Assembly (NCBI GenBank): GCA_014801525.1
Contig: JAAVEB010000014.1
Coordinates: forward strand, 89,143-153,142
Origin: Bacteroides sp.
GTDB lineage: Bacteria; Bacteroidota; Bacteroidia; Bacteroidales; Muribaculaceae
DNA length: 64,000 nucleotides
Direction: 5' to 3'
This document shows, one piece after another, positions 22,059 through 50,089 of the stretch. Each line of letters begins with the position of its first letter. Position 1 is the stretch's first letter. The notes under the pieces were generated by a model. The model was given only the letters and a program-made list of their open reading frames with translations, was not told the origin of the DNA and ran no database searches. Both the position numbers and the translations under genes were made by a program.

Positions 22059-22098
22059 AAGCCGGGCAGAGCGCGAAATGCGACCTCTGCCCGGCTTT
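22059..22098. terminator. bidirectional terminator between fumarase gene and convergent glycosidase cluster
   Basis: Perfect 13-bp stem AAGCCGGGCAGAG/CTCTGCCCGGCTT between convergent genes. Confidence 0.85.
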
Positions 22099-29958: not shown

Positions 29959-29965
29959 CACTGTG

Positions 29966-30034
29966 TTTTTCATGGTATTAGATTTAAGGTTAATTACTAC
30001 GGGTGGGTCGGGAGACTCGCCCGTAGTAATTTTA
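29966..30034 (+). ncRNA. putative short RNA or attenuated leader upstream of era, about 70 nt
   Basis: -7 box at 29951 followed about 35 nt later by AATTACTACGGG-tgggtcgggagactcg-CCCGTAGTAATT + TTTAT; no ORF. Confidence 0.4.
29992..30034 (+). terminator. terminator-like hairpin upstream of era
   Basis: Perfect 12-bp stem followed by T-rich tract. Confidence 0.7.
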
Positions 30035-30106
30035 TAGGGTAGCAATATTTTTCCGAGTTATATTGTTATACATATATAATTATAATCGAAAACAAAATTC
30101 AAGTAT

Positions 30107-45750: not shown

Positions 45751-45797
45751 GCGGGGAGAATAGACCAATGAGACTGTGCCAACCTGCACAGCTAATT

Positions 45798-45814
45798 CAA
45801 CATCTCCGATGTTG
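45798..45814. repeat. 7-3-7 palindrome CAACATC-TCC-GATGTTG
   Basis: Perfect 7-bp arms, 3-nt loop. Confidence 0.6.
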
Positions 45815-45836
45815 CAGATTGATTCCGCACCATATA

Positions 45837-45867
45837 CCCCATGCTGATTTAATCAGCATGGGGTTTT
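45837..45867 (+). terminator. terminator after glgB
   Basis: CCCCATGCTGATT/AATCAGCATGGGG hairpin followed by TTTT. Confidence 0.85.
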
Positions 45868-45875
45868 GCATATTT

Positions 45876-45892
45876 CGACATCTCCGATGTCG
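45876..45892. repeat. 7-3-7 palindrome CGACATC-TCC-GATGTCG
   Basis: Perfect 7-bp arms, same TCC loop as 45798-45814. Confidence 0.6.
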
Positions 45893-45984
45893 TGGGCGGT
45901 AGCAGCGGCATCTTTTTGGTGTTTGGAGGAGATGGTCCGTGCGTTTTTTGTGGTAGGAGGACGAGAATTGTCGTTGTGCGGGAA

Positions 45985-45992
45985 TAAATTTG
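45985..45992 (+). promoter_or_regulatory. -7 box TAAATTTG for lipoprotein gene
   Basis: TAnnTTTG, 24 bp upstream of ATG. Confidence 0.45.
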
Positions 45993-46015
45993 CGGCAGAT
46001 ATAAAATAATGGAAA

Positions 46016-46822
46016 ATGAAAAATTACAGATTTTTGTTTGTGGCAGTTGTTTCGTGCTGCCTCGGTGGCGTGTTCTCGGCGTGTGATGAAAATGACGGCG
46101 ACAAGCCGGACAATAACGAGGAAATTTCAATGCCTAACGCCCTTCAGGTATTTACCGATGGTATCCCTTCGAAGGTGGGGGACGCAAAAATAATGGTCAA
46201 TGGCGACGGTCAGGTGACATCTATTGCGGGCAAATGGTCGACAGCAACGTTTTCATACACCCCTGTTTCCCACATTGTTGATTATGACATGACGATGACA
46301 ATAAAATATTTCGACGAGCCTGGGACCGACGTGTTCTACATTAGGCTCAACGACTTGAATTTTATTGAATATGCCCTTCAGATCAGCGATGACGGCGAGG
46401 AGGAATGGTGGTTTGACTACGACAAAGACAGCCGGCTCAACTACATGAAGCGCACAGAGGGCGACAATGAGGTGACCCGCATTTCATATCGCGACGGCGA
46501 CATAACAGGCATCTCCATGACCTCGGACAATCCCGAAAATGAATATAGCGCTACGATTGTTTACACGAATGCCTCCGTCGCTTCGCCGATTCCCAACAAG
46601 GGGTGTGTGATGCTTTTCGATGAAACTTTCGGAATAGACATGGATGAAATGGCAGTTGCTTATTATGCAGGGCTGCTCGGCAAGTCGACTATACACCTTC
46701 CCGCCGGGTTGAAAGACCGATGGTATGACATGACGTTTGAGTGGACACTGAATGCCGCCGGTTTTCCGGTGGCGTTTGAAGACAAGCCATACGGCGACGG
46801 CTCAACAACATTTGCGTGGTAA
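46016..46822 (+). CDS. putative lipoprotein (DUF4595-like beta-rich domain)
   Basis: 268 aa; lipobox FSAC; acidic low-complexity linker; YxDG/FxYDxxxR repeats. Confidence 0.65.
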   Translation: MKNYRFLFVAVVSCCLGGVFSACDENDGDKPDNNEEISMPNALQVFTDGIPSKVGDAKIMVNGDGQVTSIAGKWSTATFSYTPVSHIVDYDMTMTIKYFDEPGTDVFYIRLNDLNFIEYALQISDDGEEEWWFDYDKDSRLNYMKRTEGDNEVTRISYRDGDITGISMTSDNPENEYSATIVYTNASVASPIPNKGCVMLFDETFGIDMDEMAVAYYAGLLGKSTIHLPAGLKDRWYDMTFEWTLNAAGFPVAFEDKPYGDGSTTFAW

Positions 46823-46894
46823 AAACTTGTTGGCTACTGAGCCAAGATGGAAAAACCACATAAATGGCGCATCCAATTCAACATGAATCACTCC

Positions 46895-47450
46895 GAAGCC
46901 TGAAAAGGCTTCCTCCTACGGATAGCCGGGTAGAGTGAGCGAAAGTGCGCTCTACCCGGTATAAGTCGACAATAAGTCGCGCTCTGCAAGGAGCGCCCCC
47001 TGAATCAAGGAGGCTGACGAATAGAGAAATTGCAGGGGAGTAGCGAGTGGGAGTTTTAGGGGGCACTCTTCCAGAGTGCGATTCGTATGATACGCATATC
47101 CCGGGCACGGCTCATTTCATTCACCGTACCCGGCTATCCATAGGGCAAGCCTTTGCAGGCTTGATTTGGATGAATATTCATTCCGTGTTGCGGATACGTC
47201 GGGGTTGTGTCGCCGTAGGCGGCATTCATGTTAGCCCACCGGGGCGGAGATTTCGTAGAGGGCGCCGTCCCGGGGAGATTGCAAGGGAAGACCGACCGCT
47301 CCCTGTAAGGTGGCTTTATGTTGTGATTTGTGCGCGTATTCAAGTCCACCTACGGGGAACGTAGGGAGATGCCATACGGCAACTCCGGGGCGATGCCACC
47401 TGACGGCGACATCGCCCCGGATCTACCCGTTAATGTCGCCTACGGCGACA
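46895..47450. repeat. cluster of at least 11 short, mostly perfect, non-identical palindromes
   Basis: GAAGCC-6-GGCTTC (46895); CCGGGTAGAG-14-CTCTACCCGG (46926); GCGCTC-6-GAGCGC (46979); GCACTCT-TCC-AGAGTGC (47063); CCGGGcACGG-13-CCGTaCCCGG (47101); CAAGCCT-4-AGGCTTG (47146); GTCGCC-GTA-GGCGGC (47209); CCGGGGCGG-17-CCGTCCCGG (47239); CCTACG-5-CGTAGG (47349); TCCGGGGCGATG-14-CATCGCCCCGGA (47384); TGTCGCC-TAC-GGCGACA (47434). Confidence 0.7.
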
Positions 47451-47497
47451 ATCTCCGATGTCGTTGCCGGAGTGGGGTGCCGTCTAATCACACAACA

Positions 47498-47528
47498 TAG
47501 TGACATTGCGTGCGATGTACTCATCGCA
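47498..47528. repeat. dispersed repeat TAGTGACATTGCGTGCGATGT, overlapping a 7-bp hairpin
   Basis: Near-identical to 50005-50026 (TAGTGGCATTGCGTGCGATGT); TGCGATG-tact-CATCGCA hairpin. Confidence 0.5.
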
Positions 47529-49873: not shown

Positions 49874-50004
49874 TAATTGCAAAATTACATAAATTTTATA
49901 AACCCCACACTTTTTACACAATAATTCCTCTCCGAAATATCAGGTCACTCTTTTTTGAGAGAATCCTCTCCCGGAATCTATCCCCCTCCAAATCCAAATA
50001 GAAA

Positions 50005-50026
50005 GTAGTGGCATTGCGTGCGATGT
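50005..50026. repeat. second copy of TAGTG(A/G)CATTGCGTGCGATGT repeat
   Basis: One substitution relative to 47498-47518 over the shared core. Confidence 0.5.
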
Positions 50027-50089
50027 CGTAGGGAGGAAGGGGTTCGTGTTGGGACAAACGGGATTGTTGAACAAATTTCGGCAATCGAA

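Follow-up and report, generated by a model that had tools for sequence, protein, structure and literature searches.

The non-coding block at positions 46895-47450 of the window (the whole stretch of 64 kb of DNA that was analysed) is made up of two composite elements, unit A and unit B, which lie side by side and belong to a dispersed family. We consider, with a probability of about 80%, that these are two adjacent gene-less copies of REPIN-like mobile elements that have been spread by an enzyme of the TnpA-Y1 subclass 1.2 type. Judged from their sequence, they would be the non-autonomous elements of a transposase lineage that falls outside the RAYT class, and they would act like REPINs.

Composite hairpin units, their covariation and their copies

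The dense array of palindromes that the initial annotation had described here is real. Under strict rules (perfect arms of at least 6, loops of 3-17, no overlap) the segment 46895-47450 contains 8 non-overlapping perfect hairpins with a summed arm length of 62, against 1.6 ± 1.2 hairpins (maximum 7) and a summed arm of 10 ± 7.6 in 300 dinucleotide shuffles of the same segment, the highest of which reaches 45. The figure of at least 11 hairpins that had been proposed is attained only if imperfect hairpins containing G.T pairs or mismatched bases are admitted, for instance hp2 in A's right half and both hp2 and hp3 in B's left half. When half-overlapping segments of 556 bases are ranked by arm length over the entire 64 kb, the top two (starts 47261 and 46983) both overlap the block. 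Its folding is equally distinct from that of shuffles (z = -10.6 with RNA parameters and -7.3 with DNA parameters), and the predicted fold of the block strand is two large imperfect hairpins of ~275 and ~300 nt. The Pfam search of the open reading frames inside the block gave zero matches, in keeping with the earlier view that no credible one exists there, and the Rfam covariance-model search also gave none in the block. The place originally indicated is right and the limits slightly narrow; the elements reach from ~46893 to ~47480, and further members lie outside.

Side-by-side comparison of copies reveals a fixed order of parts. Each half-unit carries a first hairpin (hp1), a TAG/TAA-type tag, the long main hairpin (hp2) and a third hairpin (hp3); the second half is inverted, and each element has six small hairpins in mirror order. 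The palindromes are not independent members: each has a fixed place and order within one of two composite, inverted elements. In the halves of unit A an hp1 of the CAAGCCTgaaAGGCTTG type is followed by a stretch ending in RTAG/RTAA, an hp2 of the CCGGGTAGAG..CTCTGCCCGG type and an hp3 of the GCGCTCTGCAAAGAGCGC type, and then, after a short pivot, by the inverted set.

Unit A (46895-47163) is a gene-less composite of a left half, a pivot and an inverted right half, with the layout of the gene-carrying locus L061 described below. Its left half-unit (46896-47005, forward strand) scores 96.7 bits with the covariance model R1, in whose training alignment this copy is included. It comprises hp1, GAAGCCT/GAAA/AGGCTTC (46895-46912, forward), which is a perfect hairpin and covariation helix 1; the tag ATAG (46922-46925, forward), which abuts the foot of hp2; hp2 itself, CCGGGTAGAG...CTCTACCCGG (46926-46959, forward), which is covariation helix 2 and contains an internal tandem G.A mismatch kept in the family; and hp3, GCGCTC/TGCAAG/GAGCGC (46979-46996, forward), again a perfect hairpin and covariation helix 3. 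The pivot between the halves (47006-47053) is, by comparison of the loci, the place that the transposase gene occupies in L061. The right half-unit (47054-47162, reverse strand; 96.1 bits, likewise a member of the training alignment) contains hp3' (47063-47079), hp2' (47101-47133), the reverse-complemented tag (47134-47137) and hp1' (47146-47163).

Unit B (47208-47451) belongs to a different sequence family with the same layout and is supported by covariation. Both of its halves were placed in a second alignment (A2). The left one (47208-47318, forward) has hp1 at 47209-47223, the tag GTTAG at 47230-47234, hp2 at ~47239-47274 and hp3 at 47298-47314. The right one (47337-47451, reverse) has hp3' at 47344-47360, hp2' at 47384-47421, the tag GTAG as the reverse complement of 47423-47426, and hp1' at 47434-47450.

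Other structured sequences occur elsewhere in the window. A third family, unit C (45795-45892), reads CAACATC TCC GATGTTG / CCCCATGCTGA..TCAGCATGGGG / CGACATC TCC GATGTCG; it sits between a glycogen-branching-enzyme-like gene and a DUF4595 gene, and about 10 related sequences are found in G010, a close relative of the window's own genome. A partner enzyme for unit C is only suggested, by the resemblance to the eye of the tag and the TCC/GGA loops in the loci L064, L072 and L115. A unit D-like hairpin, GACATTGCGTGCGATGT (47494-47518, forward), and a second one (50002-50027, forward) together bracket a BspA-type gene. A lone hp2-like hairpin, GCCGGGCAGAGCGCGAAATGCGACCTCTGCCCGGC followed by TTTATTTT, at 22060-22096 could represent either a terminator or a solitary copy, and positions 29963-30036 match the Rfam family BTncRNA_FopS (paralogous Bacteroidetes sRNAs) with 58.4 bits at a cut-off of 56.

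The initial remark that the arms differ and the pairing is kept proves to reflect true covariation in both units. In an alignment of 66 half-units A from four genomes 96.1% of the cells are paired, against 83.7 ± 0.5% in shuffles, and among 21 sequences of unit B 96.6%, against 89.5 ± 0.7%, comparisons whose significance is overstated since many of the aligned sequences are close copies. Structures slid along the unit A alignment pair at most 45.7% of the cells, a control that somewhat favours our structures, which were written by hand from the same alignments. The stronger part of this evidence is the two-sided changes, which in unit A are present at 16 of 27 pairs and spread across three helices. 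In unit B further pair types are no more numerous than in the shuffles, and for this reason the covariation, which supports all three hairpins, does so more weakly for B than for A.

Two features of the units, the tag and the G.A mismatch, are confined to one of the strands, which fits recognition of a single strand. The tandem mismatch within hp2 is retained in 63 and 60 of 66 copies. The four bases preceding hp2 are ATAG (30), GTAG (17), ATAA (15) or TTAG (2) in 64 of the 66 half-units A, RTAG/RTAA thus accounting for 62. Persistent G.T/G.U pairs are also found at fixed positions in units A and B. As a general strand marker the G.T pairs were rejected, unit A having an excess at one position only (51/67) and elsewhere 16 G.T against 13 A.C; that one position and the G.A mismatch are the only strand-specific pairing features that we use.

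The window's own genome (G000) is a metagenome-assembled genome (MAG) of 1.54 Mb, 66% complete. Searching it and its relatives with the block, as had been advised, proved fruitful: BLAST finds 63 matching places in G000, many of them at contig ends, the covariance model of half-unit A has 22 matches there, and members of the family occur in related genomes. At the family level, half-unit A matches occur in 23 of 119 genomes, which represent 11 of 30 genera. The training set of the model came from G000, G010, G007 and G004 (the last of the same genus as the window), where its matches are partly by construction, and those in G043, G125, G072 and others are independent. The copies are dispersed intergenic palindromes in inverted pairs, among which half-units and scars also occur. 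Among named records the exact unit A motif was found only in the MAG 'Bacteroides sp. Mgla_MAG_15-bin_4', a search in which records of the own genome were possibly left out, and one 21-base pattern, a weak test, had zero exact matches in viral contigs.

Some loci are crowded or interrupted. About 1 kb of one own-genome locus (L008, 985-1990, on G000:C15) is filled with successive A, B and C units between two divergent open reading frames, and in L080 (1-750, on G007:C225) a different repeat separates the two halves of a unit A, with a D-like hairpin just outside, which we read as nesting. Six contigs of G000 (C2, C6, C9, C11, C15 and C20) terminate in or beside elements, which suggests that the elements break short-read assemblies.

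Gene-carrying form and its pairing with gene-less copies

That no transposase is near the block agrees with a search for the Y1 transposase domain (PF01797), which gave zero matches in G000 and in G010 (also a MAG, 59% complete) and many in their relatives. At locus L061 of G004, a left half-unit A is followed by a gene for a 148-aa HUH-Y1 transposase and then by an inverted half-unit. We collected 46 Y1 loci from the genus and family, 44 of them distinct (two pairs represent one gene each), and compared each upstream flank with the reverse complement of the downstream one. The median score is 85, the mismatched loci that served as control (n = 2070) give 18, and 33 of the 46 exceed the 99th percentile of this control; the other 13 fail the flank test, some of them showing the layout by eye. 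Matches to the half-unit A model directly adjoin Y1 genes at G004:C11 and G043:C10 (on both sides), G074:C281, G125:C43 and G078:C516. At the foot of the main hairpin the triplet TAA/TAG is found in 26 of 51 Y1-gene flanks, where 1.4 are expected from flank composition, and on the opposite strand in 1 of 51; this count, which demands a perfect stem and is set against the background and the antisense strand, replaced one on folded flanks (34/85) that was blurred by foot placement. A blastn search of the B halves against the collected Y1 loci found no transposase for unit B.

The enzymes encoded at these loci have a median length of 148 aa. All 43 carry HUH, 41 of the 43 carry Y---Q--HH, and none of the 43 has Y...NP. 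They score 61-73 bits with the IS200/IS605 model of NCBIfam (NF033573, cut-off 55) and resemble the TnpA proteins of ISDra2 and IS608 in the PDB; the REP-transposase model NF047646 (REP_Tyr_transpos) was below its cut-off or absent in six of six tested enzymes. They are diverged, the eight other Y1 genes of G004 being at most 51% identical to that of L061. By motifs and length, rather than by a tree, they would belong to TnpA-Y1 subclass 1.2, an assignment that concerns the enzymes of relatives and not the window's own genome. Given these motifs, the complete lack of Y...NP and the scores below the REP-transposase cut-off, we do not file the system as a class-2 RAYT. The kind of enzyme that the initial annotation had thought worth seeking, RAYT/IS200-like, is present in relatives, with subclass-1.2 TnpA-Y1 motifs and not as a class-2 RAYT.

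The gene-less copies can be matched to particular transposases. When 30 such copies from seven genomes were compared with 49 Y1 flank sets, the best-matching flank came from the copy's own genome in 21 cases, where 2.4 were expected. One single gene was the best match for 7 of 7 copies in G004, 6 of 6 in G125 and 7 of 8 in G043, and in these three genomes there is a matching of one transposase to one family. The own-genome flank was the best match in 0 of 5 copies in G072, 0 of 2 in G096 and 0 of 1 in G140; the G072 copies match no Y1 flank of their own genome, and in G096 and G140 the flank of another genome scores higher.

Enzymes of the TnpA_REP and TnpA_IS200 type recognise single-stranded DNA in its folded form, together with a tetranucleotide tag and a stem mismatch (PMC8266576). 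The anatomy of the units matches this established recognition, and from it we propose a mechanism. The autonomous form would be a gene for a HUH single-tyrosine transposase of ~148 aa, whose motifs are those of the IS200-like TnpA-Y1 subclass 1.2, between two halves. The tag-bearing strand would fold once it becomes single-stranded, such as on the template of the lagging strand; the cognate TnpA would recognise it by the tag and by the main hairpin with the conserved G.A mismatch inside, and would then cut and rejoin the strand, presumably by single-strand transposition, spreading gene-less copies across intergenic regions. Unit B would be served by a similar enzyme. It counts against this model that the cognate enzyme is seen solely in more distant relatives, and in neither G000 nor G010.

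Site differences between relatives and other readings of the block

Presence or absence of the units varies among relatives. The G007 ortholog of the window locus has neither unit A nor unit B in its short intergenic stretch, and a second empty site in G007, taken from direct reading of the sequence, corresponds to a locus on contig C4 of G000; these empty sites may be compatible with either ancestral state. G010 is 98.9% identical to window positions 45801-47190, which include unit A. It is without ~132 bp that contain the left half of B and lie between GTTG repeats, and separately without ~2.7 kb that comprise the remainder of B and the BspA-type gene. The segment 47360-50050, with this leucine-rich-repeat gene and unit D-like hairpins on either side, is missing from the G010 locus. 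G010 is likewise without the inner part of a unit B that is present in L008 of G000. Junctions of these G000/G010 indels carry GTTG or GGG, and slippage deletion at hairpins could explain them as well as excision. The empty-site comparisons gave no clear target-site duplication or cut site; a classical MITE combines such a duplication with terminal inverted repeats, and inverted halves are present here.

Such micro-repeat junctions, together with the half-units and scars and the lack of a transposase in G000 and G010, are what would be expected if the elements were inert remains, formerly mobile and now dead, with strains differing only through deletion or recombination at repeats. We give this reading a small chance. 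Compensatory change keeps the pairing in divergent copies, which is hard to understand without ongoing use; gene-less copies match a single intact transposase in each of G004, G043 and G125; and both MAGs are incomplete, with elements at contig ends.

Somewhat less probable is that the block acts mainly as RNA, be it a 3'-end stabiliser, an attenuator or a non-coding RNA, and that RNA structure is what has been selected. The very stable fold, the covariation, the G.T/G.U pairs that persist at fixed positions and the location of the window copy between two convergent genes could all be so understood. The copies, however, have gene neighbours in every orientation (11 codirectional, 6 convergent and 3 divergent by rough calls of open reading frames), with no convergent-only rule, and on each strand one half is sense and the other antisense. 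The block is also without an Rfam match, and its mirrored layout flanks Y1 genes, the copies following a transposase and not a host gene.

A binding or recombination array of some other enzyme (integron attC-like sites, or those of a site-specific recombinase or a nucleoid protein) seems to us very improbable. Imperfect strand-specific hairpins do recall attC sites, and copies of unit D stand on both sides of a BspA-type gene that G010 does not have, but the matching enzyme, which was sought through the Y1 domain, is a transposase of that type and not a tyrosine recombinase, and the layout is a fixed, mirrored one of three hairpins instead of repeated cassettes. Palindromes arisen by chance, or the decay of a gene, are readings for which only the missing annotation speaks and which can be dismissed: shuffles of equal composition, which had been named as the test that could overturn the observation, stay below the real palindrome density, dispersed homologs and covariation exist, and no open reading frame in the block has a Pfam match. 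Among the three explanations first offered, that of REP/BIME-like elements was right in architecture and probably in mechanism, and we do not favour the structured RNA or the recombinase array.

There is also a broader proposal, towards which we lean with some reserve. Subclass 1.2 would be the engine of a REPIN-like system, undescribed and widespread among gut Bacteroidales; every transposase lineage would read a tagged three-hairpin code of its own and spread gene-less copies, with several systems coexisting and nesting in one genome. The subclass, described in print as an orphan that lacks REPs, would have probable substrates in the elements, and a lifestyle like that of REP/RAYT would extend to another branch of HUH-Y1 enzymes. 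The many natural pairs of enzyme and hairpin could serve as a test bed for how single-strand DNA transposases choose their hairpins, and the elements, in which several own-genome contigs end, may help to explain why these gut genomes assemble poorly.

Comparison with known systems

The closest architectural parallel is the REPIN/BIME-RAYT system, exemplified by the E. coli REPtron (PMC8266576, PMC3116915). Shared with it are the dispersed intergenic palindromes in inverted pairs; a tetranucleotide tag at the 5' foot, GTAG in E. coli and RTAG/RTAA here; a conserved mismatch in mid-stem, AA-GC in E. coli and a tandem G.A here; and the gene of a cognate single-tyrosine HUH transposase lying between matching palindromes. 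The GTAG/GTGG of that system appears here in a relaxed form, GTAG itself preceding hp2 in 17 of 66 half-units. The two systems differ in that each half has three ordered hairpins here and one there, and the enzymes differ from class 2 RAYTs (TnpA_REP) in their motifs and in their low scores with the REP-transposase model.

Like IS200/IS605 elements (subclass 1.1), the system has a TnpA above the cut-off of the family model, hairpins at both ends and gene-less derivatives (palindrome-associated elements). The ends of IS200/IS605 are subterminal hairpins on one strand, whereas here the halves are mirror images in inverted orientation, and its copies are near-identical within a genome, whereas the Y1 genes here are ~50% identical or less. 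BrickBuilt and other MITEs of Porphyromonas gingivalis are also composite structured intergenic repeats in Bacteroidales. As far as the part of the published description available to us goes (PMC4596501), BrickBuilt has a tandem 23-nt repeat and short terminal inverted repeats similar to ISPg, with neither multi-hairpin halves nor a Y1 transposase, and on that description we rejected an identity with it.

The enzymes themselves fit TnpA-Y1 subclass 1.2, for which a search limited to open papers found one source alone (PMC6006769). The likeness extends to the 148-aa median length, HUH, Y---Q--HH, occurrence in Bacteroidetes and diverged genes in low copy. That subclass was published with the entry 'REP: no' and without IS-like end structures; many of the members examined here lie between mirrored flanks of multiple hairpins, and for several of them there are gene-less copies dispersed in the genome. 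These flanks and copies contradict the published description of subclass 1.2, and not membership in it.
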